A stretch of DNA of 64,000 nucleotides from positions 124,001 to 188,000 of the IMG/VR virus record IMGVR_UViG_3300046003_007892; one strand, 5' to 3'. The notes under the pieces were generated by a model. The model was not told where the DNA came from, ran no database searches, and was given only the letters and a program-made list of their open reading frames with translations. This stretch comes from a virus. Both the position numbers and the translations under genes were made by a program. Positions 24,635-44,641 of this stretch are shown piece by piece (positions within the stretch are counted from its first letter, which is position 1; each line of letters begins with the position of its first letter).

Positions 24635-24909
24635 AGAAAACCACCTACGAGTATGGGGTCCACGAGACCAATGCGGAGGCCTGTCAGTTCGTGGTCTGCT
24701 TCCCGGTACGCCGACATGCAGGGCGTCACTGGGGCGACCGCAAGCTGATCATGAAATGGCTGCGCAACAACGCCCCCAAGGGCAGCTACCTCACGCCGTC
24801 GCACAACTTCCGCAACGAAGCCGGGGAAGAAATCTGGATGGTTCGCGTTGAGACCTTCACGCTCGCCACCGCCCTCTACTTGGTCTTCGGTGAAGGTTTC
24901 GGCGGGTAG
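24631..24909 (+). CDS. Small paralogous-type protein, 92 aa
   Basis: The start is GTG overlapping the previous stop (GTGA). It has TYEYGVHETNAEACQFVVCF, then EEIWMVRVETFTLATALYLV, similar in layout to the small-protein family. The C-terminus overlaps the convergent minus gene by 34 bases. It ends with TAG. Confidence 0.65.
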   Translation: MKKTTYEYGVHETNAEACQFVVCFPVRRHAGRHWGDRKLIMKWLRNNAPKGSYLTPSHNFRNEAGEEIWMVRVETFTLATALYLVFGEGFGG

Positions 24910-26570
24910 ACGGAGTCCACGATCTTCTTCAGAACGCCGCCGTGGCGGTCGTAGGCGCACGCGCCGATAGCACTCGTTCGGTCCAGCTTCTGGACGGCCA
25001 TCTTCATCTGCGCTGGCGTGAATTCCTTCTGCGGCATGTAGCCGACCATCTGCATCCGGTTGTAGGGCTCAAGCTTGTCCAGGAAATTTAGGAAGATCGG
25101 CATCGGGATGCGGTTGGCCTCATAGGAGGCATAATACTTTCTCGCGAACATTTCGACGTCGTGATCGAGTGTCGCTTGCAGGATAAACGGCGGGACGTCG
25201 CCGGGACCACCAGTCCAGGATTCAAGAACGTGGGGGTCGCGGGCAATCAGGGTTTCCATGTTGGCTTGGCTCATCCGCAGGCCCTGGTAATATTTTCTGA
25301 ACTTCTCGTGGTTCTGGAGAATGAACTGCTGAACTCCAGCGGACAGCTTGCGGCCGACTGCGCGGCGAGGCGTCTCTGAGATGATCTCGATCACCTGCTT
25401 GTCTCCAAACGGAGCGATGCTCATGATGAGATTGTCAGTCTCCCCCATGGCGCACAACGGGTCAGCCATGATGCGGTCCTGCACGGACTTCGGAAGATCG
25501 CTCCACTGTATACCATTGTTGCCCAGACCGGACAGCACGATAGACGACGTGTAGAGGAATGAGATGATCTCATCGTCGGACAGTTTGCCTTGCCGCATCT
25601 GGTTGATGAAAATCTGCGGCTTGGCCGACCAGATTGCACGGTTGGACTTCGGCTCGTTGCCTTCGTAGCGGTTATTGACCGTCTGGAGGAGCTTGATGCC
25701 CTTCATGGACATGAAGACAGCCTGCGAGGGCTCGTTCTCGTGGATGATGCCCTGGCCCTCGTGCTTGGACCAGTCGTAGTCCAGGACGCCGTCGTAGCCC
25801 ATCTTGCGAAGAATCTTGTTCCAGTCCAGAGACGGGTTGAGGCTTTCTTCGTCGTCGGCCCAAGAATTCTGGGTCTCGTATTCGTCGAGGTCGCGATGAT
25901 ATTGCTCTACCGCCCCCGCGTGGGTCTCCAGTGCCTCTTCCCATTCGTCTTCGCTGTCGAAGTCCTCGTATTCTGGCTCGTCGGGCCATTCCGGGCGGGT
26001 CAGGTCGGGGTCCACGAGACGCATCTTCGTTTTTTCGAGTGCGGCCTTGTAGAGAACATTCCACAGGGCGCCGCCCTCGGTATCTACGGGGAGATCGTCA
26101 TCCGGGACTTCGTTGAACTCCGAAGATGCGTAGCGGACATCCGATACGCTCACCTTGGCGAGGTCGAGAACATTCAGCGACGGGCTGATCTCGAATACCT
26201 GGATGTATGGAGCCGTGGAAGCGAACTCGACGCCGCCTTTGCCCTTATGGAGCACGTAGTCGATAGGGTAGGCGTAGATGCCCAGCGGTGTCCGATAGCT
26301 GGACTGGGGGTTGATGCCCAGTTTGGCTCCACGGGTATTGTGGGTCTTACCGGATGCGCCCGAGACGCCGCCGTCGCGGAAGTTCTTGCCTTCGATCTTG
26401 CCGCCGTAACTGCCAGCCTTGCCCATATGGGTCAGGTTGCCGACGTCTTCCGTGTAGGAGACGAACACGTCCTTTCGGCCCTCGTAGGGACGAAGCTGAT
26501 CTTCAATCGAACGCTTGAAGTTCTGGTCGGGATTCCGTCGCTGTTCGAGGAGGATTTCGTGGAAACGCAT
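24876..26570 (-). CDS. Packaged-protein candidate with ADP-ribosyltransferase-like part, 564 aa
   Basis: The N-terminus MRFHEILLEQ matches the capsid-targeting-like leader shared by ten proteins here. Residues 30-320 look like an ADP-ribosyltransferase-type fold: DVFVSYTEDVGNLTHMGKAG, YRTPLGIYAYPIDYVL, then MGYDGVLDYDW and GIIHENEPSQAVFMSM. An acidic insert (about residues 195-245) interrupts it. The last 240 residues are helical with no recognised domain. A TAAATA box ends 4 nt before the ATG. By analogy with T4 Alt it may be injected with DNA; that is inference. Confidence 0.7.
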   Translation of the reverse strand: MRFHEILLEQRRNPDQNFKRSIEDQLRPYEGRKDVFVSYTEDVGNLTHMGKAGSYGGKIEGKNFRDGGVSGASGKTHNTRGAKLGINPQSSYRTPLGIYAYPIDYVLHKGKGGVEFASTAPYIQVFEISPSLNVLDLAKVSVSDVRYASSEFNEVPDDDLPVDTEGGALWNVLYKAALEKTKMRLVDPDLTRPEWPDEPEYEDFDSEDEWEEALETHAGAVEQYHRDLDEYETQNSWADDEESLNPSLDWNKILRKMGYDGVLDYDWSKHEGQGIIHENEPSQAVFMSMKGIKLLQTVNNRYEGNEPKSNRAIWSAKPQIFINQMRQGKLSDDEIISFLYTSSIVLSGLGNNGIQWSDLPKSVQDRIMADPLCAMGETDNLIMSIAPFGDKQVIEIISETPRRAVGRKLSAGVQQFILQNHEKFRKYYQGLRMSQANMETLIARDPHVLESWTGGPGDVPPFILQATLDHDVEMFARKYYASYEANRIPMPIFLNFLDKLEPYNRMQMVGYMPQKEFTPAQMKMAVQKLDRTSAIGACAYDRHGGVLKKIVDSVYPPKPSPKTK

Positions 26571-26574
26571 CCAC

Positions 26575-26580
26575 TATTTA
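26575..26580 (-). promoter_or_regulatory. Late TAAATA box 4 nt before the start codon
   Basis: TAAATA then GTGG then ATG on the minus strand. The TAA is also the stop of the upstream gene. Confidence 0.65.
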
Positions 26581-26994
26581 GACCGGGTCGCTGACCTCGA
26601 ACGAGTCGAAAATAAAAACGAGACGGTGAACCTGGGGGTTGCCGTCCATGGTGTTCATATTCATGTCGGTGACCGCGTGCGTGTAGAGACGGCAGCCGAG
26701 AAAGTTTCTCGTCGCCCCCTTCTCTCTCTTGCCCTGCCGATTGATATTGTGGGGCGTCATTCGAACCGCGACTTTGCTGGCCTCGTCATTGGAACCTCGG
26801 GACGACGCCATGCGGCCGATCATCCTGACGATGCGTCCGTCGAGATCATCGGCGGCAGCTAGCCAAACCCGATGAGCGGTGAGATCAAATCCGATTTCGT
26901 GGACATGGTTGGCCCAGATGCTCGGCTCATCGGCCAGCATGAGCATCATTCCAGTCACATCCACCACGAACCTGTTGGACGCGGTTCTGGTCAT
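26578..26994 (-). CDS. Hypothetical protein, 138 aa
   Basis: The protein has an N-terminal strand region (RFVVDVTGMMLMLADEP), a basic middle (HNINRQGKREKGATRNF) and the ending VHRLVFIFDSFEV. This ending resembles that of the neighbour at 26991 (SHRLTFTYGLFEV), suggesting duplicated genes. A virion role is possible but not shown. It overlaps its neighbour by 4 bases. Confidence 0.65.
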   Translation of the reverse strand: MTRTASNRFVVDVTGMMLMLADEPSIWANHVHEIGFDLTAHRVWLAAADDLDGRIVRMIGRMASSRGSNDEASKVAVRMTPHNINRQGKREKGATRNFLGCRLYTHAVTDMNMNTMDGNPQVHRLVFIFDSFEVSDPV

Positions 26995-27464
26995 CGGCCG
27001 CCCTTGCGGAGCTTGATCGGTTTCGTCTTCGGCAAACGGACCTCGAACAGCCCGTAGGTGAACGTCAGACGATGCGAGATCATGACCCGCTCGGATTCAT
27101 AGTCGCGCCTCATCGGCGTGATGCGGTCGTGCCGTTTCAGCACGAGATCGCTGAACACCTTGGTGTGCCCCTCTGTGAATTCGTCCGGGTCACCCTTGAC
27201 CGAAATCGTGAGCCCGTCTGGACAGTGGAGGCGCGACATCATCATGGCCACCTGACCATGGCGGTCCTCCGAGACGGTGAACCTTACGGTTTTCTTCGCG
27301 ACGTTGAAGTGGATGTTCCACACGAACCGACCGATATCTTCGCAGTCGTTGAGGGCCAGGAAGACCGAGTTGACGGTGACCTCGAAGTCTTGGTTGAGGG
27401 CCGTGAAATCGTCATCCTCTCCAAGAAAATGTTCGTCCTCGGGGTCGTACTTGTAGACGCTCAC
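26991..27464 (-). CDS. Hypothetical protein, 157 aa
   Basis: It has an acidic start (DPEDEHFLGEDDDFTAL), a beta-rich middle (WNIHFNVAKKTVRFTVSED) and ends HRLTFTYGLFEVRLP plus a basic tail. It is related to the next gene by its ending. Function unknown. Confidence 0.65.
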   Translation of the reverse strand: MSVYKYDPEDEHFLGEDDDFTALNQDFEVTVNSVFLALNDCEDIGRFVWNIHFNVAKKTVRFTVSEDRHGQVAMMMSRLHCPDGLTISVKGDPDEFTEGHTKVFSDLVLKRHDRITPMRRDYESERVMISHRLTFTYGLFEVRLPKTKPIKLRKGGR

Positions 27465-28072
27465 GCGCCCTTCTCCCCATGGATGGCTTTCACGAGGGCC
27501 ATCTGCGTGGTGAGCAGATGCTTGATGTTCTCGTAGGCGGCCTCCTGGTCGGGGAAGAGGCGACGAGCCTTCTTGATCATCGGCAGGAAGAACTCCTCGC
27601 CCTCAGCCACGTAGGCGAGTTGTTTCTTGGCATTGAAAACGCCCACCATGGAGTTGAAGTTGTGGCCCCGGTCGGCGCCCTTGCCGATGCTCGCATAGGG
27701 GTCTTGAGCGATGCTGGCGAAAACCTCGGTAGGGTTGCGTTTGACGCCCTTGAACTCCTTGGTCATCGCCCAGACAGAGGTCGCGACATCCTCGCCGAAG
27801 CGGCGGGCCTGTTCGTCGCGCGCAATCCCATAGTCTTCGGAGACGTCGTGGAGGAGACAGACCGTCAGGGTCTTCTCCATGTCGCGCAGCGCGGGCAGGG
27901 TGCGGACGTAGTGGCAGATCGCGATCTGATGACTGAACTCCGGCGTGACGCCGTCCTTGCGGAAGCCATTGTGATGGAAAGCTGCGAACTCCATGGCCTC
28001 TAGGGCGAGGTTGTAGCCTCGACCCAGAAGCCAGTATCGGAGGGCGATTTCTTGTTTCTTGAGAGGGTCCAT
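27461..28072 (-). CDS. HD-domain alarmone hydrolase-like protein (SpoT/MESH1 type)
   Basis: The 203-residue protein carries the metal-site motifs of single-domain (p)ppGpp hydrolases: AAFHHNGFRKDG (His33/34), the second His in FSHQIA, the HD pair in CLLHDVSED (His75-Asp76), and KGADRGHNFNSM with Asp134, the counterpart of the KLADRLHN motif of SpoT. Such enzymes remove the 3'-pyrophosphate of (p)ppGpp. No synthetase domain is present. It would let the phage lower the stringent signal during infection. The start ATG at 28072 gives the natural N-terminus. It overlaps the downstream gene by 4 bases and lies next to a MazG protein. Confidence 0.85.
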   Translation of the reverse strand: MDPLKKQEIALRYWLLGRGYNLALEAMEFAAFHHNGFRKDGVTPEFSHQIAICHYVRTLPALRDMEKTLTVCLLHDVSEDYGIARDEQARRFGEDVATSVWAMTKEFKGVKRNPTEVFASIAQDPYASIGKGADRGHNFNSMVGVFNAKKQLAYVAEGEEFFLPMIKKARRLFPDQEAAYENIKHLLTTQMALVKAIHGEKGA

Positions 28073-28102
28073 GACTTCATGATGGCTCCTTACTCAGGAT
28101 TG

Positions 28103-28789: not shown

Positions 28790-28846
28790 AATATGACCTA
28801 GTGGGACGTGGTTATAGGTCTGTTGCTGTCCCTCAATACGACAAAA

Positions 28847-28867
28847 GACCGGGGATTAACCCCGGCC
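28847..28867 (-). terminator. Rho-independent terminator, minus strand
   Basis: CCGGGG-TTAAT-CCCCGG followed by TTTT on the minus strand, after the 102-residue gene. Confidence 0.8.
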
Positions 28868-28909
28868 TTATGGTAACCGATAGGGTTCGGCAGAGCCGAA
28901 TTAAATCGA

Positions 28910-29218: not shown

Positions 29219-29257
29219 GGGTTCCTCCTCAGGAATTTCACAGGATGGTCACAGAAT

Positions 29258-29289
29258 ATCCGGTTTCCCAAATTTGGAAAGGTTTTTTT
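29258..29289 (+). terminator. Hairpin with T-run (plus strand)
   Basis: TTTCC and GGAAA pair around CAAATTT, followed by seven T. No plus-strand gene lies before it, so it may belong to an unseen transcript or be part of the structured region. Confidence 0.45.
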
Positions 29290-29377
29290 CGGACTACGAG
29301 ATGTCCGACTGTCGTCGTCCATCTGCTTCTGTTCGTCTCACTCGCAAGCTCGTTCGCTTGAACATCAGCAATTCAGA

Positions 29378-29993: not shown

Positions 29994-30803
29994 TTAGCGG
30001 CACCCCATGGCGCGTCTATACTGTGCGAAGTTTGCTTGCACCCATTGGATTACTACGCTCATGTCGTCGTTCACGAACAGAGGCCGCAATCCCCTGTTCT
30101 GGTTTTTGTTTATCACCTTCCAGGTCCCGCCATCGTTGGCGATGAAGACGATATCGCGGGGGTCAACGTCTGCTCCCCAGAACACGATCTGTTCTTCCTG
30201 ATCGCCGTGGTGGTCACACTTGACGCCTGAGTTCATGAACATGACGGCCTCTCGCCCATACTTGCTGCCGCTGTCGGCATTGCGGTAGTTGGCGTCGTAG
30301 GCGAAATTGTAGCCGCCGTGCTTTTTTGCCTCGTCTGAGAACCACGTAGTCAGCCCGAGCTTGTCCATCTCGTCCATTCCGTACTTGAAACCATAGAGGG
30401 AGATTTCGCGGGCGTTGTCCGAAAAATGGATGAGCCACGTCGTGCGAGGAATCAGGCGATCTTTCCCGAGTGTCATGTGGGCGGTGGTCGGGGCATCGGC
30501 CGGGTCGTGGTGCAAGATCGTACCGATGATATCCTGGGCGCATTCTTTCTGGATGTGCTCGGGGAGCTTGTAGAAAAAATCGGCATCATACGTGATGGAG
30601 TTGGCGAGATCGTTCCAGGTGACCTCTTCGCCCGCCGCCTCATTGGTCTCGTCGGGATAGTTGTCCACGAGCCATGACGCGATATGACTCCAGTGCTGGT
30701 AGGGGTCGAAATCTCCACCCTTCATGTACTGGAGGAAATTCGTGTTGTCGGGAGAATACTTCTCCATCACGGACTCGGCGACGATTTCGAAGTAGGTTTT
30801 CAT
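29994..30803 (-). CDS. Packaged-protein candidate, ADP-ribosyltransferase-like, 269 aa
   Basis: The N-terminus MKTYFEIVAE is strikingly like the T4 internal protein leader MKTYQEFIAE. Residues 140-260 suggest an ADP-ribosyltransferase-type fold: TTWLIHFSDNAREISLYGFK, GGYNFAYDANYRNAD, KYGREAVMFMNSGVKCDHHG, and EEQIVFWGADVDP. TAAATA ends 5 nt before the ATG, and no ribosome site precedes it. The idea of head packaging and injection rests on the leader. Enzyme activity is inferred from fold-like patterns only. Confidence 0.7.
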   Translation of the reverse strand: MKTYFEIVAESVMEKYSPDNTNFLQYMKGGDFDPYQHWSHIASWLVDNYPDETNEAAGEEVTWNDLANSITYDADFFYKLPEHIQKECAQDIIGTILHHDPADAPTTAHMTLGKDRLIPRTTWLIHFSDNAREISLYGFKYGMDEMDKLGLTTWFSDEAKKHGGYNFAYDANYRNADSGSKYGREAVMFMNSGVKCDHHGDQEEQIVFWGADVDPRDIVFIANDGGTWKVINKNQNRGLRPLFVNDDMSVVIQWVQANFAQYRRAMGCR

Positions 30804-30808
30804 CCACC

Positions 30809-30814
30809 TATTTA
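30809..30814 (-). promoter_or_regulatory. Late TAAATA box 5 nt before the start codon
   Basis: AATAAATA then GGTGG then ATG on the minus strand, divergent from an early-type promoter on the other strand. Confidence 0.65.
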
Positions 30815-30844: not shown

Positions 30845-30850
30845 TCCCGT

Positions 30851-31261: not shown

Positions 31262-31530
31262 TGCTAACCGCGAGTGATCGTGCCCTCCAACTCGCCTTGC
31301 TGGTTCTCGTCGTCCCATACGCGATTTTGTGTTGGGTGGTGGCTCCATGCTTCCTGCTTTTTGCCGCGATAATAACGCTCGGCGCCGCCTTGCTCGACCG
31401 GTGCGGCTTCGAAGAGTTCTCCGGGATGTTCATCGTCACGCTGTTTGTCGTCACATCGCCGTTCCGCTTCGTGTTCGACCGAATCTACGCAGCCGTGTTG
31501 GGTCGCGAACACGAGTGGAAGTTTCACTAA
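31261..31530 (+). CDS. Three-span membrane protein, 89 aa
   Basis: Hydrophobic segments lie at about residues 8-28, 28-46 and 55-72. The C-terminus is charged (REHEWKFH). No family was recognised; size and topology fit a small inner-membrane protein, with holin or exclusion protein only possible. Its TAA stop is the first half of the next gene's TAAATA box. Confidence 0.65.
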   Translation: MLTASDRALQLALLVLVVPYAILCWVVAPCFLLFAAIITLGAALLDRCGFEEFSGMFIVTLFVVTSPFRFVFDRIYAAVLGREHEWKFH

Positions 31531-31533
31531 ATA
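31528..31533 (+). promoter_or_regulatory. Late TAAATA box 4 nt before the start codon
   Basis: TAAATA then TGGA then ATG 31538. The box overlaps the upstream stop codon. Confidence 0.65.
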
Positions 31534-31537
31534 TGGA

Positions 31538-32122
31538 ATGCGTCTGACCGAACTCTCTATCCCGCACGACCGCGAAGAACTCTCGCTGGAACTCATGGTC
31601 GCAGGCTACAGTCCGTTGGGTTCCGGCGACTTCGCCGATGTCTACCACAAGCCCGGCGCCGCCTACGTCCTAAAGGTTTTCGAGCCTCGCGACGAAGCCT
31701 ATCGGGCATTCCTGACCCTGGCCCGCTCCCATCAGGACAACCCGCATTTCCCGAAGATCATCGGGAAGCTCGTAAATATCAAAAACAAATGGTTCGCTGT
31801 TCGGCTCGAAAAGCTGGAGCGGTATCGCTACGACAGCACTCTGATCTACCGCTACATTCGCTGGCGGGATGAGCGAGGCAAGCATGACCCGCAGGGTATG
31901 TTCGCGATGGAACTCGAAGACGCGTTCGAGTTCATGGAGGAATACCCGAAACTCCAAGAAGCATGCGATCTCATCATCGACAATCTCCTCACGCAGGGCG
32001 GCCAATCCCTGGCCGGTCATGTGCCGGATTTCCGTCAGGACATCCGCAACGACAACATCATGATGCGGGGAAATACCATCGTGATCGTTGACCCTATCGT
32101 GCCCAACAAAGAGATGAAGTAG
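31538..32122 (+). CDS. Protein-kinase-like packaged-protein candidate, 194 aa
   Basis: After a leader-like start (MRLTELSIPHD) the sequence has a glycine loop YSPLGSGDFADVYH, a strand with lysine AAYVLKVF, and a catalytic-loop-like DIRNDNIMMRGNTIVIVDP, in which Asp and Asn are placed as in HRDxxxxN and VDP replaces DFG. It is shorter than standard kinases. Similar small kinase-like phage proteins exist. The leader and late box suggest it travels in the virion. It could be an active kinase or a pseudokinase. Confidence 0.7.
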   Translation: MRLTELSIPHDREELSLELMVAGYSPLGSGDFADVYHKPGAAYVLKVFEPRDEAYRAFLTLARSHQDNPHFPKIIGKLVNIKNKWFAVRLEKLERYRYDSTLIYRYIRWRDERGKHDPQGMFAMELEDAFEFMEEYPKLQEACDLIIDNLLTQGGQSLAGHVPDFRQDIRNDNIMMRGNTIVIVDPIVPNKEMK

Positions 32123-32135
32123 CGGATAGAAGAAA

Positions 32136-35709: not shown

Positions 35710-36480
35710 GTGCGCATAGCGGTATGTATATCTGGGCAGTTGCGAAACTGGGACCAATGCGGAGCATGGTGGGAACCTCTGTTCTCCCATCTCGCCCCCA
35801 CGTATGACGTCTTCGTCCACACCTGGGATTACCGCACGGAGCCGGGCAGCACGGTCTCGGCCCCGGTCTCCGATATCGAACTCGCCGCCTTTCGGGATTG
35901 CTTTGACCCAGTCGCCATGCAGGTTAGCCCTGCGGCCGATTATGCGTGGCTGGACGAACGAGCAGCCAGGATTCCCAACACCTGCCACCTCGTCACACCC
36001 GGACGACCATCGACCCAGCACGCCAGCCAGTTCGATTCGATGCGGCGAGCCTTCCATCTCAAACGAGAGCACGAGATCGCCGAGGGGTTCCTCTACGACA
36101 TCGTCATACGCGCCCGCACAGACATTCGCATAACCAAGCCCCAGCCCCTTGCGGCTCCAGGACGCGACACCGTCATGGGTGAACTGTTCCGTCGTCTTGC
36201 GTGGCGGCACACCCATTTCTCCGACCGTTTCTTCATCTCCGATTCGGTGACGGCGGACAAGATCGGCAACGTCTTCGCTGCCCTCCCCATGATTCGCTCC
36301 GGCGTTTTCTTTGAACCCGACAAGGACATCACGCCCGAGACCGTTCTGCATTTCTACCTTCGAATGCTGGGACTCAAAATTCAATCTATCGACGTCGCCA
36401 CCCGCCTCGTTCGATCATCTCAATACGCCGCCGCCCAGTGCGAGCTTGGGCGCGGACTGGGAGCCCATGAAACGATCTAG
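35710..36480 (+). CDS. Glycosyltransferase-like protein A, 256 aa
   Basis: It opens RIAVCISGQLRNWDQCGAWW and continues YDVFVHTWDYR, the start of a glycosyltransferase-like family (phage and LPS-type, related to WavE-like proteins). A DIVIRARTDIRI segment fits the acidic metal motif of the fold, and SDRFFISDS follows. It would transfer a sugar; donor and target are unknown. It overlaps the next gene, a paralogue, by 14 bases. Late box upstream. Confidence 0.7.
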   Translation: MRIAVCISGQLRNWDQCGAWWEPLFSHLAPTYDVFVHTWDYRTEPGSTVSAPVSDIELAAFRDCFDPVAMQVSPAADYAWLDERAARIPNTCHLVTPGRPSTQHASQFDSMRRAFHLKREHEIAEGFLYDIVIRARTDIRITKPQPLAAPGRDTVMGELFRRLAWRHTHFSDRFFISDSVTADKIGNVFAALPMIRSGVFFEPDKDITPETVLHFYLRMLGLKIQSIDVATRLVRSSQYAAAQCELGRGLGAHETI

Positions 36481-37183
36481 AATTGCCGTCTGCCTATCGG
36501 GCCAGCCCCGCACGTGGAAGACCTGTGCGGCCAACATTCGAGCTTTCTTCGACCCGGCCGGAGACGTGGATTATTTCATCTCGACCTGGACGCGGAACAC
36601 ATGGTGGAACGACGGTCAGGCGTACCTCGAAGATGCCGACACTGAAGGACTATCTGAGGCTTTCAACCCTGTTGCTCTACGGATTGAACCCCTGCCTAAG
36701 AAATTCGGATGGAACGGTCTATTCGATTCGTTCACTTCTAGTGTGCATGATAAGAAAAGTCATGAAATCGCGAACTCTTTCCTGTATGATGTTGTAGTAA
36801 AAGGCCGGTTGGATTGCGTATTTGATCCTCGCTTGACGTTCAAGCCCGGCGCAGTAGAGTCCATGACCGCCTATTCTGTAAATCATATGGAGAGAATGCC
36901 CCACGAATACTATGGGGCCAATTTCTCCGACATGTGGTTCCACTCTGGAACCATGGAGATGGACATCCTCGCCGACTGCATGCGGGATGCCGACATCATC
37001 GAGCACGAGGACTACGGCCCCGGAGTTCTTCTCTGGAACCACATGACCAAGTATCGCATCCATCCAAGCTATTCTCCCGCGATGGTGCACAACACCATCG
37101 TCCGCAAGGAGTTCGAGCATCTCGACGGCCTCGTGGATTACGAGGAGATCAGGGACCGCTTCAAGGGCTGGGTGGGACGATGA
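36467..37183 (+). CDS. Glycosyltransferase-like protein B, 238 aa
   Basis: RIAVCLSGQPRTWKTCAANI and DYFISTWTRNTWW repeat the opening of the preceding protein, with DVVVKGRLDCVFDP as the acidic segment and NFSDMWFHSGT later. The two are paralogues with different C-termini. The 36760-36880 part has more A and T than its surroundings, possibly a recent insertion or transfer. Confidence 0.7.
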   Translation: MKRSRIAVCLSGQPRTWKTCAANIRAFFDPAGDVDYFISTWTRNTWWNDGQAYLEDADTEGLSEAFNPVALRIEPLPKKFGWNGLFDSFTSSVHDKKSHEIANSFLYDVVVKGRLDCVFDPRLTFKPGAVESMTAYSVNHMERMPHEYYGANFSDMWFHSGTMEMDILADCMRDADIIEHEDYGPGVLLWNHMTKYRIHPSYSPAMVHNTIVRKEFEHLDGLVDYEEIRDRFKGWVGR

Positions 37184-38766
37184 CCGAGACTGTAGTCATC
37201 CTCGCTGCGGGATACGGGAGCCGCATGGGACCCTACGCGGACAAAATCGCCAAGACCCTCTTGCCGGTCGGCCAGAAAGCTGTGGTGAGTCACATCATCG
37301 ACCGCTTCGACCCCCAGACCCATTTCGTGATCGCGGTCGGTCATCTCGGGACGCAGATCAAATCCTATATCGCGATGGCGCACCCTCGGCTCAACGTCAC
37401 CTTCGTGGACGTCGATATCACTGCGGCGCCCGACTCCACTTTCGGACCAAACGCGGCCGGTCCCGGCACCACCCTCTTGGCCTGTCGCCCCGACCTCGGT
37501 GAAGGCCCGTTCTTTCTCGTGACCGGAGACACCCTGTTCGAACTTCCCGCCGACCTGACGGGCAACTGGGTTGGCATTCAGCACGTCGATGATCAGACCG
37601 AATACTGCAATGTCGTCCTCGACGGCGACATGGTCATAGAGGTGGCGGACAAGGTCGAGAAACCAGGAAGCATGGCCTGGACTGGTCTTGCCCACATCGA
37701 AGATCACAGCTTCCTCGACAAGCTCGACTACGCGTCAAACACCGGCCTTCCGCCTAGCGTGGTCAGATGGTTGAACGTGCGGACCAACCAGGAGAACTCC
37801 CTCTCGCGGGGTATCCGCCACCTGACCGATATGGGCACCCTCAAAGGACGTTGCCATGAGTGGTCGGACACGGGCACCTATGCGAAATACCGAGCAGTCG
37901 CAGGGGCAGAGGGGACATTCGCCTTCGAGAAAGAGGGTGAGTTCCTCTATCGGGTCGGAGATAGAATCGTAAAATATTTTGAGAATCCCAAGATTGCCTA
38001 TGATCGCGTCTGCAAGGCGACCATGCGGGAGGACGTCTTCCCCAAGATCGTCGGCTCCAGTGGGTCCTTCTATGCATACGAGTTCGTCCCCGGCCGGACC
38101 CTATACGAAGGTCTGACGCCGGGGCGTTTCATTGAACTCACCCTCTTTCTTCACGACCGGGTCTGGGACCCCAACGGCGACCCCGTGCACCCAACGCTCG
38201 TTCATGATTTCTATGTCCGCAAGACTGAAGCTCGTCTCGCGGCCTTCATGGAACGGAACCCCGATTTCGAAGAGGCCGAGTGCGTTAACGGTTTCGAAGT
38301 CAGACCCATCGCGGAACTCCTTCTGACCATTCCCGCGCACGAGGGCGTGAAGTCTTTCATCCACGGTGATTTGCAGTTCGACAACATCATCGACGACGGA
38401 ACAAAGTTCACCCTGATTGACTGGCGGCAGGATTTCGCAGGCCGGGTCGAGTACGGCGATCTCTACTACGATTTCGCAAAACTCCTGGCTGGCATATGGG
38501 TGGATTTCAGAGCCGTGAAAACCATTCAGCCAACCGTGGACGGTGGTCGAACGACAACCCTGTCATGCTTGCCGTCGATTGGTAACACGCTCGCCTACGC
38601 GTCGATTCTACAGGCAGCGGCGGCGCGGTATGATCTGGATTTCGCTGTCGTGAAAAAAATCACCGGCCTCATCTACTTGAATATGGCGGGACTCCACAAC
38701 AATCCGCTAGACTTGTATTTCTACAGTCTAGCTCAAGTGGTCCTCTCCGGTTATGATCTCGCGTAA
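37180..38766 (+). CDS. Fused nucleotidyltransferase and choline/aminoglycoside-kinase-like protein
   Basis: The 528-residue protein has two parts. Residues 1-235 are a sugar-phosphate/choline nucleotidyltransferase: VVILAAGYGSRMGPYADKIA, KTLLPV and FFLVTGDTLFE. Residues 250-525 are a kinase of the APH/choline kinase type: FEFVPG-like hinge, FIHGDLQFDNIIDDG as catalytic loop and FTLIDWRQDF as the metal motif. The layout is like a fusion of LicC and LicA, which activate phosphocholine for surface polysaccharides. The substrate here could instead be a sugar alcohol or ethanolamine. It lies between two glycosyltransferases and a sugar-phosphate phosphatase. Confidence 0.85.
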   Translation: MTETVVILAAGYGSRMGPYADKIAKTLLPVGQKAVVSHIIDRFDPQTHFVIAVGHLGTQIKSYIAMAHPRLNVTFVDVDITAAPDSTFGPNAAGPGTTLLACRPDLGEGPFFLVTGDTLFELPADLTGNWVGIQHVDDQTEYCNVVLDGDMVIEVADKVEKPGSMAWTGLAHIEDHSFLDKLDYASNTGLPPSVVRWLNVRTNQENSLSRGIRHLTDMGTLKGRCHEWSDTGTYAKYRAVAGAEGTFAFEKEGEFLYRVGDRIVKYFENPKIAYDRVCKATMREDVFPKIVGSSGSFYAYEFVPGRTLYEGLTPGRFIELTLFLHDRVWDPNGDPVHPTLVHDFYVRKTEARLAAFMERNPDFEEAECVNGFEVRPIAELLLTIPAHEGVKSFIHGDLQFDNIIDDGTKFTLIDWRQDFAGRVEYGDLYYDFAKLLAGIWVDFRAVKTIQPTVDGGRTTTLSCLPSIGNTLAYASILQAAAARYDLDFAVVKKITGLIYLNMAGLHNNPLDLYFYSLAQVVLSGYDLA

Positions 38767-39223
38767 GCCCCAGCATCTCATCTTCGACGTCGATGGCGTA
38801 TTCACTGACGGGAAGTTCTACTACACCGCTGACGGCAAAGTCATGAAGGCGTTCTGCTGCCAGGATAGCGATGGTCTCAGAGACCTCATGGGCGAGTTCA
38901 ACATCCATCTCATCACCGCCGACAAGAACGGCTTCGAAATCTCTCAGGTGCGGGCCAAGGATATGGGATTCCCCATCCATCTGGTCCCCAACGCAGACCG
39001 TGCCGCGCACGTTGCCCACTACGTCAAGTTCGGTGGTGCGATCTTCATGGGTGACTCGATGACGGACATCCCGGCCCTCAGGGAGGCCACCTACGCCATC
39101 GTCCCCAAACAGTCCCGCATCGAAGTCCGCGATGAAGCCGACTACGTGACCGCCTACGCTGGCGGAGAGGGCGCCGTCTTGGACGCCTGCCTGCATCTGA
39201 AAGAGAAGTTCCGAGCCCGCTAA
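38753..39223 (+). CDS. KdsC-like HAD phosphatase, 156 aa
   Basis: HAD motif I HLIFDVDGVFTDGKFYY, motif II LITADKNGFEI, the conserved Lys region, and motif IV IFMGDSMTDIPALREA match the KdsC group, which also includes the phosphatase part of NeuA-type enzymes. KdsC removes phosphate from KDO 8-phosphate; related members act on other nine-carbon acids. Its overlap with the fusion gene suggests one pathway making a surface or virion sugar. The stop TAA is part of the next late box. Confidence 0.85.
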   Translation: MISRKPQHLIFDVDGVFTDGKFYYTADGKVMKAFCCQDSDGLRDLMGEFNIHLITADKNGFEISQVRAKDMGFPIHLVPNADRAAHVAHYVKFGGAIFMGDSMTDIPALREATYAIVPKQSRIEVRDEADYVTAYAGGEGAVLDACLHLKEKFRAR

Positions 39224-39226
39224 ATA
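39221..39226 (+). promoter_or_regulatory. Late TAAATA box 4 nt before the start codon
   Basis: TAAATA then TGGC then ATG 39231; it overlaps the upstream stop codon. Confidence 0.65.
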
Positions 39227-39230
39227 TGGC

Positions 39231-39740
39231 ATGCGATATGCCGAACTGAGCGAGAAGTGGGTTGGGGCCGTCAAGACCAAATGGTCCAACGATCACATCG
39301 ACCTCTACATGGACCCGTCGCGGGCTGAGTTCATGAAACTCATGAAGGAATGGGGCACCGCCGCCCGCGCACTCGTGTCCACGCAGGGCAACCTTCTTTT
39401 CTGGCATATGGACCAAGCCCTCCACAGCGAGGCCGCAATGTCGATTGAAGGTCACGCCTGGGTCCCCGCCCATCTTGTCCTGTATCCGCCCGGCAACGAA
39501 TGTTCGATCATCATCAACGAGTTCGAGAACTTCATGTGGGATGACGACTTCGATGACGCCAACGGCGGTGGCTATAAACCCCTGCTGACCCGCGTCGTCT
39601 CGACCCTTCAGGCCAACGAGCATCTCCAGCGCATCTACGGCACGGTCGAACTCTGGGGTCTCGCCGAAGACCGTGGTCTCGACAATCCCTACATCGCCAT
39701 CACGCCGGAATGGCTGGCTGCCAACGTGGTGAAGAAATGA
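39231..39740 (+). CDS. Packaged-protein candidate, 169 aa
   Basis: It has the leader MRYAELSEKW. The following part (WSNDHIDLYMDPSRAEFMKL, STQGNLLFWHMDQALHSEA) is related to the duplicated domain of the 41296-42525 protein (IFFWDASKAIHADIW). So this appears to be a single-copy version of that domain. Function unknown. Confidence 0.65.
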   Translation: MRYAELSEKWVGAVKTKWSNDHIDLYMDPSRAEFMKLMKEWGTAARALVSTQGNLLFWHMDQALHSEAAMSIEGHAWVPAHLVLYPPGNECSIIINEFENFMWDDDFDDANGGGYKPLLTRVVSTLQANEHLQRIYGTVELWGLAEDRGLDNPYIAITPEWLAANVVKK

Positions 39741-40294
39741 AGTTCGACGACATCCTCCTCCATGAAGCGGTCGGCGACGACTACCTCTATCACGGCACCG
39801 ACTGCGACAACGCCGAGAGCATCCTGCACGCCAACGTCCTGCGCGGAGAGACCGATCACCATTCCACCACCCTGATGCCCATCAAGGGTTTGAACCGGGC
39901 CCACCCCCTGCCATTCCGGGCCAAGGAGGTCGAGCAGAACGGCCGAGTTTGGGGAGTGTCGCTGACCAGGAGCCTGAGGTTCGCCCGGCAGTGGACATCC
40001 GGCTGGGGTGCCGTCTTCGTCCTAGATCGGAAGAAGCTGGCAACCCGTCATCGGTTCGTCCCCATCGACTACGACAAGAATCGCCGCGAGGCCGAGGAGT
40101 TCCTTCTCGGGAGCATCGAGAGCCTTGATGACTTCCTGGTCCGCATCGAGATCAGCGGCGAAGCACACGAAACCCTTCTGGAAGCCAACGAGGATTTTCT
40201 CGACGGTCAGAAGCCCAACGAACTTCTCCTCGCGCACCCCAAGCTTGTCGTGGTCGGCAAGGCGTGGAACATCAATGGGATGGTGAATACCTAG
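39737..40294 (+). CDS. Packaged-protein candidate, ADP-ribosyltransferase-like, 185 aa
   Basis: The leader MKFDDILLHEA is followed directly by YLYHGTDCDNAESILHANVL, the NAD-site opening of many ADP-ribosyltransferases and RNA phosphotransferases. GVSLTRSLRFARQW supplies the conserved Ser-Thr strand and FVLDRKKL the next strand; a glutamate-bearing end is less clear. T4 injects Alt and ModA-type enzymes to modify RNA polymerase; a similar role is possible. It overlaps the previous gene by 4 bases. Confidence 0.7.
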   Translation: MKFDDILLHEAVGDDYLYHGTDCDNAESILHANVLRGETDHHSTTLMPIKGLNRAHPLPFRAKEVEQNGRVWGVSLTRSLRFARQWTSGWGAVFVLDRKKLATRHRFVPIDYDKNRREAEEFLLGSIESLDDFLVRIEISGEAHETLLEANEDFLDGQKPNELLLAHPKLVVVGKAWNINGMVNT

Positions 40295-40596
40295 TCGCGA
40301 GGCGGCACATAGAAGCCGTAGCGAATGCGCTCCCGGCGAATTTGCTCGTCGGCCATCGCCTGCTCGTCGTTGAGGTCTTTGTAGATGCCCCAGCGAAGAA
40401 CCCGCCACATTCCACTACCGAGTTTCTCGACCATCGCCTGAGCTTCCTCCTGCGAGCAGAAGCCAGCATAGACGGAGTTGGTCCCGGCACCAACGACGTA
40501 GATGCCGTTGCGGTCCTGCCACTCGGTCCAGGTCCCCTTCACGATCTTGTCGTTCGGGGTCATGCTCTGTTCGACGATGTCTATGATTTCGCGCAT
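40291..40596 (-). CDS. Packaged-protein candidate, 101 aa
   Basis: The start MREIIDIVEQ fits the shared leader. The rest is a compact alpha/beta protein (GIYVVGAGTNSVYAGFCSQE) and a charged helix. Unlike its relatives, it has an early-type promoter. Function unknown. Confidence 0.6.
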   Translation of the reverse strand: MREIIDIVEQSMTPNDKIVKGTWTEWQDRNGIYVVGAGTNSVYAGFCSQEEAQAMVEKLGSGMWRVLRWGIYKDLNDEQAMADEQIRRERIRYGFYVPPRD

Positions 40597-40601
40597 ACCG
40601 C

Positions 40602-40630
40602 CTTTAAGCAGTGTAGGTAATATTTGTCAA
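40602..40630 (-). promoter_or_regulatory. Sigma70-type promoter
   Basis: On the minus strand TTGACA (40625-40630), 17 nt, TTAAAG (40602-40607), ending 5 nt before the ATG at 40596. Confidence 0.55.
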
Positions 40631-41299
40631 GTTAATAGGTTTCTCATTGAGGAGATCGTATCTCTCGATCACGCTCTGAACAAACAGGGGAGAACCCTTG
40701 AGGACGCGAAGTTCGTATTCGTTCTCGCCGGTTTCCCAATCCATCCCGGCCATGATGGTGTGGTGCCAGTCAATGTGGGATGGGTCTACGACGGCGTGGA
40801 TGACCACGTTGACGCCTTCGGACTTGAGATCGCTCCAGACGGGTTCGAAATCCCAAGCATGGGGGTCGTAGGTCCAGTAGATGCCCAAGCTGGTCTGGCC
40901 GATGCGCTGGACGGTAGCCGCCCAGTTGGTCGGGACCTTCATGATGCGGTGGATGGAATACAGGCCGGAATGTTTCTCAATAGCGGTCAGGCGTGCGATG
41001 ACCTCGTCGTAGCGATTGTCGCACCACCACATCGCAAACGCACGGAACTCCGGCGTATCCTGGACGTCGATATCTTCCATGTCCGCGAATTGATCGGGGA
41101 ACGGATAGTTGAAATCACCCTCTCGCCAGTATTCAATCATGCGTGCGCCATTGTCGGAACCCTGGAACTTGCCCGGATAGGCCGCATGCGCTTGATCATC
41201 CCAGAAGAGACCCTGAACGAGGCTGTCCGTCATCTTGGCGCAGATGGCAGCCTTGTCCGTGGCGCCGACGCTTTCCGCGAGCGTGATCAAATGTCTCAT
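40604..41299 (-). CDS. Packaged-protein candidate, mono-ADP-ribosyltransferase-like, 231 aa
   Basis: The leader is MRHLITLAESVG. The C-terminal half shows the three elements of R-S-E transferases in order: SGLYSIHRIMKVP with the Arg, SLGIYWTYDPHAW as the aromatic strand, and TGENEYELRVLKGSPLFV with the E-x-E glutamates. These enzymes attach ADP-ribose from NAD to host proteins. It overlaps the upstream gene by 4 bases (ATGA). Activity is inferred. Confidence 0.75.
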   Translation of the reverse strand: MRHLITLAESVGATDKAAICAKMTDSLVQGLFWDDQAHAAYPGKFQGSDNGARMIEYWREGDFNYPFPDQFADMEDIDVQDTPEFRAFAMWWCDNRYDEVIARLTAIEKHSGLYSIHRIMKVPTNWAATVQRIGQTSLGIYWTYDPHAWDFEPVWSDLKSEGVNVVIHAVVDPSHIDWHHTIMAGMDWETGENEYELRVLKGSPLFVQSVIERYDLLNEKPINLTNITYTA

Positions 41300-42525
41300 C
41301 GGAACTCGTAGGGACGCAGTCCCGAGAAGAGTTTCTTGAAGGCCGGGTTGGCGAGCATCTGAGCGGCCGAGTGCTTCGGCACGTAGACGAACACGTCGCC
41401 GGTCGTGAAGAAGGCCATCTTGGAAGTTCCGCCGATTTCGCCCGCCGCATCGCCGAGGAGTTTGTCGAAGTCCGTGGCGGCCATGAAGGGAGCAACGGTG
41501 GTGATGTCGTCGGTCATCTGACGGTAAATCTGTTGGTGGATGGCTGAGTTGGCGTCCCAGATATAGACCGACGCCCCGAACGTGACGCCACGGACGAGGC
41601 CGTATTTGGCGTTAGCGATGAGGCTCCTGGTCGTGTTCGGTGTGGGGTCGATATGAACGATGACTTCGCGGTCCCGGACATCGAACTTCTCCATCCGTTC
41701 CGTCAGGGGGCGAGCCGATTTTCGCAACATCAAATCGCTGTCGGCGTCGAACTCAAATCCGAGACGTTCATACCAGCTTTCAAGATCGATCTGGCCGAGC
41801 GCATTCGTGTTGTCGTCCTCGGCGTTTCCGAACTCGACATCCGATCTAGGGAACAACTCCAGGTCCACGCTGAGTTGATCAGCCGTCCGCATAAGGTCGG
41901 TCATGATCTGGCGACCCTTCCCATCATGGCGTTCGCCAGCCGGAACATGGAGCCATCGAATTTCTACGGTGTCGTGGTTGAGCGCAATGAGCTTCAGGTT
42001 GCTGCGGTGATATTTTTCCGCCATCGCCTTGATGAGCGCAGCAGCGTTGCCGGTGTTCTCGATCAGGGAGCGTTTCATCTCCTCAGAGACGTCGATGATG
42101 CGCGGATTGAACATTCGCTGGAACGCCGGGTTGCCCATCAGGTCGCCCTCGGCACCAGCGGCGACATAGAAGAAACCGACCTCGGGGTCTTCGATGAAGG
42201 TGAAGAAGTTGGCCTTCTCGTATTCCCGACGCGCATCATCGACCACCGTTTGGAGATCAAAGCCCATCATGAACAGGCGGACCTCGTGGAACTGGTCTGT
42301 AACCTGACGCCAGATGTCGGCGTGGATAGCCTTGCTGGCATCCCAGAAGAAAATGTCGTTGTTGACCGCAAAGCCACGCACCATGCCGAACTGCGCATTG
42401 GCCAGCAGGGCTTCCAGCGTGTTCGCGGTTGGATTGCTGTGCACGACAACGTCGCGGCCACGAACATCAAACTGTTCGGCGCGCTCCGTGAGGTCGGACT
42501 CAGCGAGAGATATGAACTGACGCAT
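41296..42525 (-). CDS. Packaged-protein candidate: duplicated domain around a GNAT domain, 409 aa
   Basis: The leader is MRQFISLAES. Residues 12-75 (AEQFDVRGRDVVVHSNPTAN, then NDIFFWDASKAIHADIWRQV) recur at about 277-345 (MEKFDVRDREVIVHIDPTPN, then ASVYIWDANSAIHQQIYRQM). Between them, residues 170-270 look like a GNAT acetyltransferase: VEIRWLHVPAGERHDGKGRQ, then LESWYERLGFEF. The layout is domain, acetyltransferase, same domain. A related single domain is encoded at 39231. The substrate is unknown. Confidence 0.75.
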   Translation of the reverse strand: MRQFISLAESDLTERAEQFDVRGRDVVVHSNPTANTLEALLANAQFGMVRGFAVNNDIFFWDASKAIHADIWRQVTDQFHEVRLFMMGFDLQTVVDDARREYEKANFFTFIEDPEVGFFYVAAGAEGDLMGNPAFQRMFNPRIIDVSEEMKRSLIENTGNAAALIKAMAEKYHRSNLKLIALNHDTVEIRWLHVPAGERHDGKGRQIMTDLMRTADQLSVDLELFPRSDVEFGNAEDDNTNALGQIDLESWYERLGFEFDADSDLMLRKSARPLTERMEKFDVRDREVIVHIDPTPNTTRSLIANAKYGLVRGVTFGASVYIWDANSAIHQQIYRQMTDDITTVAPFMAATDFDKLLGDAAGEIGGTSKMAFFTTGDVFVYVPKHSAAQMLANPAFKKLFSGLRPYEFR

Positions 42526-43064
42526 TACTCGTCTTCATGCCACGTCTGGGGATTGCCGTAGAAATGGCGAATCTGTTGTGCATCAGCGGGGTCCTGCATG
42601 TCAAACACTGCTTGACGGGACAGTCCCTCGACGTTCTTCAACCATCCATCCACGATGAAGCGATCATCTACCACGGCGAAGGCGTGACCGTCGCAATAGT
42701 CGGCCAGCGCGGATTCGTCGTTGTCCTCATAGTTGATTCCGCCTGCGCCATGCATCCAGAACCCCATTTTCTTGGCTCGCTCCGGTAGGGCGGCGACAAC
42801 GAAGCGGGCCCAACTATCACAGAACACGGCGGGGCCATGGTCTCCCATGACGTGTTGCCCGCCGCCCATGGCGTCGTATTCTTCATCGGAAAGATCATTG
42901 ATCTCGGGGGTGGACTCGTCGTGATCATCGAACTCGATGCTGTTTGGATAGTTGGACTCATCTCCGAAATAGTCTTCGAGTTCGGCCTTGACCTGGAGGG
43001 CCGTCTTAGGAGGCGTGGCGTCTCGGTGGCGAGCCATGGCTTCGAGGAGGTTGGCGTATCTCAA
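42525..43064 (-). CDS. Packaged-protein candidate, 179 aa (TTG start)
   Basis: TTG 43064 overlaps the upstream stop (TTGA) and gives the leader RYANLLEAMARHRD. The middle is acidic; the C-terminal part has DGHAFAVVDDRFIVDGWLKN and MHGAGGINYEDND, somewhat like a papain or transglutaminase-type His region. No Cys nucleophile is certain (VFCDSWARF is a candidate). Function unknown. Confidence 0.65.
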   Translation of the reverse strand: MRYANLLEAMARHRDATPPKTALQVKAELEDYFGDESNYPNSIEFDDHDESTPEINDLSDEEYDAMGGGQHVMGDHGPAVFCDSWARFVVAALPERAKKMGFWMHGAGGINYEDNDESALADYCDGHAFAVVDDRFIVDGWLKNVEGLSRQAVFDMQDPADAQQIRHFYGNPQTWHEDE

Positions 43065-43513
43065 CGGTTTTCTCCGATGCGGTCCCATAGGCCATCGAGT
43101 TTGCCACCGATGACCGTGCGGTAGAGGAACTGGTAGCCGTCGTCGCGGAGTTTATCGAAAGCCTGCACGTCTTCGTGCCGGTTATCGCAGATGAAATCTC
43201 CCCGGTCGGTGGTCACGCACAGGACGGCGTGACCCTCATTTTCTTCAGTCTTGCAGACAGTAAAGAGAAGCGCGGATGCGGGGAACCCCGCCTTGAGGAG
43301 CATGTCGAGTTTGTAGAGGGTGATGCCGTCACAATCCTCGATCTTGTCGCTAGCAACATCGCGCGGGAAATCCCAGCGTTCGATGACGCCCCAGGTCTCC
43401 TCGTCCGAGGTCCACACGACCTCATTGCCCAGACGATTGACGCGTCGGAGTTCAGCCCATGCCTTGGTGGTCAGGACGAGACGATTATTTCCATCAACGG
43501 TGTATTTCAGCAT
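43061..43513 (-). CDS. Transglutaminase-like cysteine peptidase (BTLCP type), 150 aa
   Basis: The catalytic order Cys-His-Asp of the bacterial transglutaminase-like cysteine peptidase family is visible: EDCDGITLYKLDMLLKAG, then GHAVLCVTTDRGDFICDN. The family cleaves or modifies proteins and is often linked to secretion or surface proteins. The neighbour at 42525 shares a similar His region and may be a diverged copy. It could act in maturing packaged proteins, which is a guess. Confidence 0.8.
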   Translation of the reverse strand: MLKYTVDGNNRLVLTTKAWAELRRVNRLGNEVVWTSDEETWGVIERWDFPRDVASDKIEDCDGITLYKLDMLLKAGFPASALLFTVCKTEENEGHAVLCVTTDRGDFICDNRHEDVQAFDKLRDDGYQFLYRTVIGGKLDGLWDRIGENR

Positions 43514-43695
43514 TGTTCGAACTCCGGGTTGCGCTCGCAGAACTCTGTCGCCGCTGGGGGAGTTGTGACCCTGCCCTGCGTTTCCATGTGCTCAGCACAG
43601 GGCAGGCCGGGCTCTGGAGTGCAGTGATCGTATTTGGGTTGTTCAGTACAGCCCAAGACAAACAGCGTGGCGAGGATAGCAAAAGCAGCTTTCAT
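43507..43695 (-). CDS. Small lipoprotein, 62 aa (o-spanin candidate)
   Basis: The signal peptide KAAFAILATLFVLGC ends in a lipobox (VLGC) with Cys at residue 16. The mature part is short, Pro/Thr-rich and has several Cys. Such small outer-membrane lipoproteins are typical of Rz1-type spanins that complete lysis in Gram-negative hosts. No partner i-spanin is certain; the single-span protein at 46574 is one candidate. TAAATA ends 5 nt before the ATG. Confidence 0.7.
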   Translation of the reverse strand: MKAAFAILATLFVLGCTEQPKYDHCTPEPGLPCAEHMETQGRVTTPPAATEFCERNPEFEQC

Positions 43696-43700
43696 GCTGC

Positions 43701-43706
43701 TATTTA
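43701..43706 (-). promoter_or_regulatory. Late TAAATA box, minus strand
   Basis: TAAATA then GCAGC then ATG of the lipoprotein; divergent from the late box at 43736. Confidence 0.65.
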
Positions 43707-43735
43707 GACAAAGAAAATCCAGATAAGGTGGAGGA

Positions 43736-43741
43736 TAAATA
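43736..43741 (+). promoter_or_regulatory. Late TAAATA box, plus strand
   Basis: GATAAATA, 28 nt before the ATG at 43770, followed by an AAAAC/GTTTT hairpin and GGAG. Confidence 0.6.
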
Positions 43742-43769
43742 CCCAAAACACACCGTTTTGGAGAAACCA

Positions 43770-44267
43770 ATGTCTAAGAAACCCGCATGGCTCGAAGTAG
43801 CCGAACGTTACATCGGCACGAAAGAATATCCCGGCGCCGGAAACAACCCCGTCATCCTCCAGTGGGCCAGCAAGACCGCCCGCTTCCTCGGTATTTCCTA
43901 CAAACAGGACAGCGTGCCGTGGTGTGGCCTCTTCACTGCATTCTGCATCAACGAAGTAGGTCTGGTGCCGGTCAAGGTCGCGGTTCGCGCGTCCGAGTGG
44001 GCCAAGTTCGGCGTCGCCGTTCGGGAACCCGTTCTCGGAGCTATCGCGGTCTTCACCCGCGAGGGTGGTGGTCACGTCGGCTTCGTTGTCGGCCATGACG
44101 CCGACGCCCTGCACGTTCTCGGTGGCAACCAATCTGACGCCGTCAACGTCCAGCGTATCGCGAAGTCGCGCTGCTCTGCGATGCGCTACCCGGCCGGTCT
44201 CCCGACCCCGCGTCCGCTCGCACATTCGACCCTGGCTGATTCCCGTCTGAGCACCAACGAAGCCTAA
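43770..44267 (+). CDS. CHAP/NlpC-type peptidoglycan hydrolase (TIGR02594-like)
   Basis: The 165-residue protein begins PAWLEVAERYIGTKEYPGAG, then NNPVILQWA, VPWCGLFTAFCINE with the catalytic Cys, GHVGFVVGHD with the catalytic His, and VLGGNQSDAVNVQRI. This is the TIGR02594 type of phage cell wall amidase/endopeptidase. It has no signal peptide. It may be the second lysin or a virion enzyme; the flanking late promoter and lipoprotein favour lysis. Confidence 0.85.
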   Translation: MSKKPAWLEVAERYIGTKEYPGAGNNPVILQWASKTARFLGISYKQDSVPWCGLFTAFCINEVGLVPVKVAVRASEWAKFGVAVREPVLGAIAVFTREGGGHVGFVVGHDADALHVLGGNQSDAVNVQRIAKSRCSAMRYPAGLPTPRPLAHSTLADSRLSTNEA

Positions 44268-44641
44268 TGCGCGATCTGATCAAGCTGGCCGAAGGCCTGC
44301 GGCTCCTGACCCTCTACCACGGCACCTGCGCGCACAACGCGAAGATGATCTGTAAGGATGGTTGGCAGCCGCATTCCGGGGCTCCCTACGGGGCCTCACA
44401 CGGCGGCCAGTCTGATTATCTCTACATGAGTACCGACGAGGAAGACGCTCTTTGGTTTGCCGAAGAGCAGGGCTGCACGACGGTCATTCAGGTCATCAAC
44501 GTCCCCATCGATTACTTGATAGTGGACCCCGAAGACGGTTGCTCTGAGACAGTCGAGGAAGAAATCTCGGGACCGTATCCGGGCAAGGTTGCTTTGACTC
44601 GCGCCCTTGGTCCCGAACACTTCATTCTTTCTCAGGTCTAA
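44267..44641 (+). CDS. Packaged-protein candidate, ADP-ribosyltransferase-like, 124 aa
   Basis: The leader is MRDLIKLAEGL. LYHGTCAHNAKMICKDGWQP and YLYMSTDEEDALWFAEEQGC match the opening and Ser-Thr strand of small ADP-ribosyltransferase-like proteins, with VIQVINVP and EEEISGPYPG as later strands. It is close in design to the 39737 protein but shorter. It overlaps the lysin stop by one base (TAATG), and its own stop TAA is part of the next late box. Confidence 0.7.
   Translation: MRDLIKLAEGLRLLTLYHGTCAHNAKMICKDGWQPHSGAPYGASHGGQSDYLYMSTDEEDALWFAEEQGCTTVIQVINVPIDYLIVDPEDGCSETVEEEISGPYPGKVALTRALGPEHFILSQV

Follow-up and report, generated by a model that had tools for sequence, protein, structure and literature searches.

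The 64,000-nucleotide stretch of viral DNA analysed here (the window) comprises bases 124001-188000 of the 240,363-bp virus record IMGVR_UViG_3300046003_007892. Between positions 24876 and 44641 it contains ten genes whose products open with a similar short N-terminal leader. An initial annotation, made from the letters alone, had likened this leader to the sequence that sends phage T4 internal proteins into the prohead, and all ten of the N-termini that it listed are present where it placed them. The genes, and the T4-type late promoter boxes that accompany them, are as follows (window coordinates; a slash marks the predicted cut).

24876-26570, minus strand: g252, leader protein MRFHEILLE/Q..., 564 residues, body without assignment; TAAATA 4 nt before the ATG
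26575-26580, minus strand: late box TAAATA of g252
29994-30803, minus strand: g259, leader protein MKTYFEIVAE/S..., 269 residues; box 5 nt before the ATG
30809-30814, minus strand: late box TAAATA of g259
31528-31533, plus strand: late box TAAATA of g262
31538-32122, plus strand: g262, putative T7 gp0.7-like protein kinase (phrog_15752, E 1e-7), 194 residues, leader doubtful
39221-39226, plus strand: late box TAAATA of g273-g274
39231-39740, plus strand: g273, leader protein MRYAELSE/K..., 169 residues, no assigned function; box and motif model
39737-40294, plus strand: g274, leader protein MKFDDILLHE/A..., 185 residues, LYHGT, ADP-ribosyltransferase-like; start overlaps g273
40291-40596, minus strand: g275, leader protein MREIIDIVE/Q..., 101 residues; motif model
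40604-41299, minus strand: g276, leader protein MRHLITLAE/S..., 231 residues; motif model and homologue in related contig G001
41296-42525, minus strand: g277, leader protein MRQFISLAE/S..., 409 residues, GNAT-like region at residues 187-258; match to G009_g664
42525-43064, minus strand: g278, leader protein MRYANLLE/A..., 179 residues, TTG start, possible papain-like hydrolase; motif model
43061-43513, minus strand: g279, 150 residues, same operon as g278-g275, no leader
43507-43695, minus strand: small lipoprotein-like reading frame, 62 residues, signal ending LGC; first gene of the g279-g275 operon
43701-43706, minus strand: late box CTAAATA serving the operon of the lipoprotein-like frame and g279-g275, at 5 nt from its ATG
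43736-43741, plus strand: late box TAAATA, 28 nt before g280 (43770-44267), upstream of g281
44267-44641, plus strand: g281, leader protein MRDLIKLAE/G..., 124 residues, LYHGT, ADP-ribosyltransferase-like; weak NCBIfam match and motif model
44639-44644, plus strand: late box TAAATA of g282 (44649-45983, a gene with no leader), 4 nt ahead of it

Three of the ten leader starts fall inside longer open reading frames (30803, 31538 and 39737), and the ninth leader (MRYANLLEAM, g278) requires a TTG start, with an ATG lying 8 codons upstream. The proteins of the record have their matches in jumbo phages, 53 genes in Sinorhizobium phage Phosso and 46 in Agrobacterium phage Atu_ph07. Judging from these proteins, the record is a fragment of an Atu_ph07/Phosso-like jumbo myophage (Rak2-related): no counterpart was found for the portal, the prohead protease or almost the whole major capsid protein, and the end of the record truncates the first gene. 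A search with the topoisomerase-like g217 recovered 13 related contigs, among them G001 (415 kb, the closest relative) and G009 (578 kb).

With corrected starts, the motif M[KR]-x(3-6)-[LI]-x-E opens about 37 genes of the record. The search of the rest of the genome that the initial annotation had called for thus finds the leader beyond the ten-gene block, and the ten window genes are part of a genome-wide set. Across the record, [LIVMF]-x-E stands at the right distance in 25 of the 81 genes that start with MK or MR, versus 20 of 274 others (Fisher test, 2.8e-7). Shuffled controls gave a mean of 6.9 and a maximum of 16 against these 25, and a tighter motif gave 22 against 2.1 (maximum 9). The negative control was the jumbo phage CcrColossus, which does not have the T4-type prohead protease gp21 (SP-15, considered first, was dropped because gp21 is present there); the same test found 3 versus 0.8, without enrichment (p 0.28). 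The plain motif test was also without significance in T4 (p 0.69) and in Rhizobium phage RHph_I1_18 (p 0.19), where the sets consist of few genes.

A motif model was trained only on those G001 and G009 genes that have a late box abutting the start codon and K or R at position 2. It was seeded with E plus a hydrophobic residue, so that the E is partly built in but the choice of L/I instead of V/M/F is not; the model learned R at position 2, L/I two residues before the E (41 of 45 training leaders) and the E itself (39 of 45). By this measure seven of the ten window leaders score above the 99th percentile of this phage's ordinary genes, with g252 above all of them; the three lower-scoring leaders are MKFDDILLHE (p 0.03), MRLTELSIPH (p 0.016) and MKTYFEIVAE (p 0.16), and a rank test over all ten gives 1.3e-7. 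A strict L/I-x-E occurs at the expected position in 8 of the 10, which largely bears out the claim of a shared leader; the kinase g262, whose MRLTELSIPH does not fit L/I-x-E, is without a convincing one.

How are these genes expressed? The hexamer TAAATA occurs at 90 sites in the record, nearly all between genes, and 41 genes have it 4-6 nt ahead of their start codon, versus 0.2 expected. These 41 genes are mostly without a Shine-Dalgarno sequence; in a second group the box lies at 19-43 nt, and most of that group also have a Shine-Dalgarno sequence. The T4 late promoter is an 8-bp TATA box that lies about one turn of the helix ahead of the point where transcription starts (PMC2988020). Considering this position, a box 4-6 nt before the AUG would leave essentially no 5' untranslated region, and the abutting boxes would imply leaderless late mRNAs. 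We found no description of leaderless late mRNAs from T4-type promoters in the literature searched. Strict leaders open 19 of the 41 genes with an abutting box versus 11 of 327 others (p 2e-13), and the association between leader and abutting box is as strong in the relatives (p=1.3e-13 in this record, 1.4e-13 in G001 and 9e-18 in G009, the latter two having 35 and 43 called starts, respectively, with a box at 4-6 nt). With called starts only, 21 of 25 strict leader genes of the record belong to late-box operons, versus 81 of 330 (p 4e-9). The four exceptions, g275-g278, lie behind the small lipoprotein-like reading frame with its own CTAAATA box, so that all window leader genes are in transcription units behind a late box, and the leader genes are predicted to be expressed late. 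This promoter layout extends beyond the leader genes, since g282 (with homologues in Phosso, E 1e-119, and Atu_ph07, E 1e-110) has an abutting box but no leader. A subset of boxes throughout the record reads GTCAAGTAAATA (for example at 69401, 84435 and 135307); these often have no called gene start within 200 nt downstream and perhaps represent a different promoter class or unlisted RNAs.

Homologues of the leader proteins were found with bodies stripped of 12 residues, and 18 of the 23 found in G001 and G009 carry a strict leader, versus 45 of 1329 other genes (p=2e-21). The genes have thus kept their leader by inheritance, though its letters vary. Leaders in these two contigs include MREFINLLEQ and MRDLIDIVETTE; the homologues of g252 begin MRFREIIAE... 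(G009) and MRLVELFNN... (G001), and that of g276 in G001 begins MRDFINLVEN.... Among viral contigs, no close relatives of single proteins were found, and the DNA pattern of box plus leader had no match. In Atu_ph07, strict leaders open 13 of the 47 called genes in coding sequences (CDS) 31-76 versus 13 of 677 elsewhere (p=4e-10), and virion mass spectrometry of that phage identified 131 proteins, 29 of them from CDS 31-76 (PMC6102473). The Atu_ph07 leader genes are thus concentrated in a cluster that is virion-rich by proteomics, an indirect virion link at the level of the cluster.

The machinery that such leaders would need is encoded in the clade. The protease gp21 (PF03420, Peptidase_S77) was detected in Phosso, Atu_ph07, RHph_I1_18 and 8 of the 9 clade contigs. 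A single contig, G009, combines leaders with gp21 and, beside the latter, the portal, scaffold and capsid genes; a search with the G009 protease recovers T4 gp21 at 1e-17. In Phosso and Atu_ph07 a TATAAATA-like T4-type late box, TAAATA, precedes the portal and protease genes, and both phages have a late sigma homologue, which was not found in the 240-kb fragment. Boxes at called starts in these two phages are only distant, 17-50 nt upstream, with none at 4-6 nt. G009 also has a second, shortened gp21-like protease paralogue (G009:C1:497759-498187; phmmer 5e-16 to the main G009 protease); a diverged protease paralogue is also present in SPN3US (PMC5694885). The record itself encodes, at L007:15269-15877 (record 115269-115877), a homologue (59%) of Atu_ph07 gp676 and thus a possible alternative protease; gp676 is named a head maturation protease in RefSeq and is ClpP-like according to the Atu_ph07 paper. 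At L007:4027-4119 (record 104027-104119), 31 residues inside another gene share 55% identity with a segment of the major capsid protein of Phosso, and there are similar short matches in G001 and G009.

What do the bodies behind the leaders do? A Pfam scan of the ten window proteins gave nothing significant, a PDB sequence search with g262 and g277 gave no match, and AlphaFold without deep alignments yielded confidence scores (pLDDT) of 40 and 31 and an unusable model of g274. Profile and homologue searches were more informative. The kinase-like protein of the initial annotation is g262, which matches phrog_15752 and has kinase motifs in its sequence (LGSG...VLK...DIRNDN...IVDP); its homologue in the gp21-bearing phage RHph_I1_18 (E 7e-11) starts MKSFSEHIAES, and another homologue, G009_g636, consists of leader, GNAT and kinase. 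The acetyltransferase-like protein, g277, is likewise supported, through a homologue: G009_g664 has two GNAT regions, and residues 187-258 of g277 can be aligned with each of them. G009_g664 matches Pfam Acetyltransf_1 at 2e-10, while g277 itself has no direct Pfam match. A domain repeated at both ends of g277 (VHxxPTxNT...VRG...WDAxxAIH) flanks the GNAT-like region and is apparently related to parts of g379, g367, g354 and g150. That several of the ten are ADP-ribosyltransferase-like is plausible for g274 and g281, which have LYHGT and weak best profile matches to RNA 2'-phosphotransferase/KptA (0.0018 for g281 in NCBIfam; 0.19 in PHROGs), and is not shown for the other members. Homologues of g274 are g60, g165 and proteins of SP-15 and RHph_I1_18 (MISFKQHLNES). 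Assignments are firmer outside the window, where the leader protein g29 is an ADP-ribosyltransferase (ART-PolyVal, PF18760, 3e-16) and the leader protein g4 a cell-wall hydrolase (4e-23). No Pfam family was found for g252, and g278 has a weak NCBIfam match to Ceg10/Ceg14 (0.007).

The T4 capsid-targeting sequence (CTS) is the first 10 residues of IPIII, with residues 4 and 7 serving targeting and residues 8 and 10 processing, and gp21 cuts after L/I-x-E (PMC9026906). T4 IPII and IPIII start MKTYQEFIAE/A, to which the g259 leader MKTYFEIVAE is nearest; the initial annotation had given MKTYQEFIAE for one internal protein. The simplest explanation of the findings above, and one that we consider very probable, is that the leader is a T4-type CTS on a late-expressed set of injected cargo proteins of unusual size. 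Late in infection, the leader genes would be transcribed from T4-type late promoters (TAAATA), many of them abutting the start codon and giving leaderless mRNAs. The leader, of about 8-12 residues, would dock each protein onto the prohead scaffold core, and a gp21-type prohead protease would then cut after the glutamate of [LI]-x-E and free the mature protein inside the head. The cargo would leave with the DNA at the next infection and act at once on the new host, by ADP-ribosylation, acetylation, phosphorylation, cell-wall hydrolysis and other activities without assignment. The kind of tag is known from T4; what is new is how many proteins carry it and that the promoter sits on the start codon. 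The earlier proposal of an injected-effector set is thus supported in part: the leader, its retention in homologues, the late boxes and the gp21 of the clade speak for it, the kinase probably lacks a leader, and ADP-ribosyltransferase activity is plausible for two of the ten.

Several points weigh against this interpretation. The gp21-like protease that the initial annotation proposed to look for was not found in the 240-kb record, nor were the other head genes (portal, capsid), and gp21 was also not found in G001, from whose contig the head module is likewise missing. The correspondence between the leader positions and T4 residues 4 and 7 is a loose one. Within the window, the g259 leader has V-x-E, and g262 probably has no real leader, since its LTELS aligns inside the body of G009_g636. 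The virion proteomics come from a relative, Atu_ph07, and apply to the cluster, not gene by gene; moreover, most of the leader genes in CDS 31-76 look like one paralogue family. Finally, most leader-protein bodies are without assigned function.

If the leader proteins were packaged mainly as minor components of the head or core, and not as injected effectors, a similar N-terminus would also be seen: in T4, an L/I-x-E is present close to the N-terminus of core proteins and of gp21 itself, and genes adjoining gp21 in Phosso and Atu_ph07 encode similar N-termini (MSIRKFLNIINES). We nevertheless regard this as unlikely, given that the bodies are highly diverse and include the ADP-ribosyltransferase, cell-wall hydrolase, GNAT and kinase domains described above, which suit enzymes acting in the host. 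The signal might also direct proteins elsewhere in the virion or cell, to the tail, the baseplate or a phage-built compartment, considering that the Atu_ph07 association is with a virion cluster only and not with a head location. Such a destination seems quite improbable when the leader matches the T4 CTS and the gp21 motif and members of the clade encode gp21.

Perhaps, then, the N-terminus has no targeting role and is a translation-initiation feature of leaderless mRNAs (an AUG-CG context), as the strong association of leader and abutting box might suggest. It is difficult to see how this could account for leaders on genes with normal spacing and a Shine-Dalgarno sequence (g343, box at 20 nt; g377, 25 nt) or on the downstream operon genes g274-g278 and g281, or for genes with predicted leaderless mRNAs, such as g175 and g282, that have no N-terminal leader. 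The signal also reaches residues 8-10 with L/I-x-E, and Atu_ph07 has leaders yet no abutting boxes. Leaders without abutting boxes and abutting boxes without leaders thus both occur, and a translational cause is disfavoured to the point of being scarcely credible. Equally little can be said for a recently copied DNA cassette (promoter, start and leader), or paralogy, that gave the N-termini their likeness without a function of their own. Some bodies are indeed paralogues (g121/g380/g383, g314/g316 and g60/g274/g165), but homologues keep leaders of differing sequence and, among unrelated leader genes, the codons for identical leader residues agree 606 times against 603 expected from codon usage. 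The likeness therefore does not come from recent DNA copying, and the cassette is rejected as the origin of the leader.

As a probable T4-type targeting sequence, the leader has parallels in known systems. T4 IPI, IPII, IPIII and Alt likewise combine a short N-terminal leader ending in the gp21 motif L/I-x-E with unrelated bodies, and Alt is a packaged ADP-ribosyltransferase. The differences from T4 are that about 37 such proteins, instead of about four, are encoded in a 240-kb fragment, that Arg and not Lys is usual at position 2, that the effector bodies are different, and that the late box abuts the start codon. Atu_ph07 and Phosso, which have homologous genes throughout this record, share gp21, a T4-like head module and late boxes before the portal and protease genes, and the Atu_ph07 leader cluster lies in a virion-rich region; they differ in the distance of their boxes and in their fewer, shorter leaders, mostly of one paralogue family in Atu_ph07. 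The ejection proteins of phiKZ and SPN3US are likewise numerous, packaged and cleaved by a homologue of gp21 (PMC5694885, PMC9026906), but the cleavage motif in phiKZ is S/A-x-E, unlike the short, T4-type leader with L/I-x-E found here. ART-PolyVal and GNAT domains also occur in the predicted injected polyvalent proteins of phages (PMC7824862 and work cited there); those are giant polyproteins, whereas the proteins described here mostly have a single domain or two, each with its own leader.

If this interpretation is true, a single phage carries injected proteins by the tens, roughly tenfold the T4 set, and such proteins can be recognised from nothing but their sequence, through the combination of leader and late box. 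Effectors of host takeover and anti-defence could then be picked out by rule among the thousands of jumbo-phage genes without a name, and the proposal made for T4-like phages, that the T4 CTS works as a general cargo system (PMC9026906), would be put to the test. A broader idea, on which we are nearly evenly divided but lean slightly to the negative, is that the clade has a dedicated virion-cargo expression layout, in which late boxes lie on the start codon, dozens of effectors and some structural genes are expressed from leaderless mRNAs, and new genes could become cargo with little added sequence.

Some other features of the record lie apart from the leader genes. Window positions 15655-15730 contain a tRNA with a CTA anticodon (tRNA-Pyl according to ARAGORN), possibly an amber-suppressor tRNA. 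In all, 24 tRNA genes lie in the record, and TAG is the stop codon of 83 of its called genes. The record also encodes a GroEL (PHROG 4e-176) and, judged by eye, aminoacyl-tRNA-synthetase-like proteins (L010:1188-2786, L011:5131-6753 and window 17650-19596). A run of sugar-related genes occupies window positions 35710-39223; its first gene has a late box 4 nt before a GTG start, and by eye the run encodes two glycosyltransferase-like proteins, a fused nucleotidyltransferase/kinase-like protein and a KDO-8-P phosphatase-like protein.

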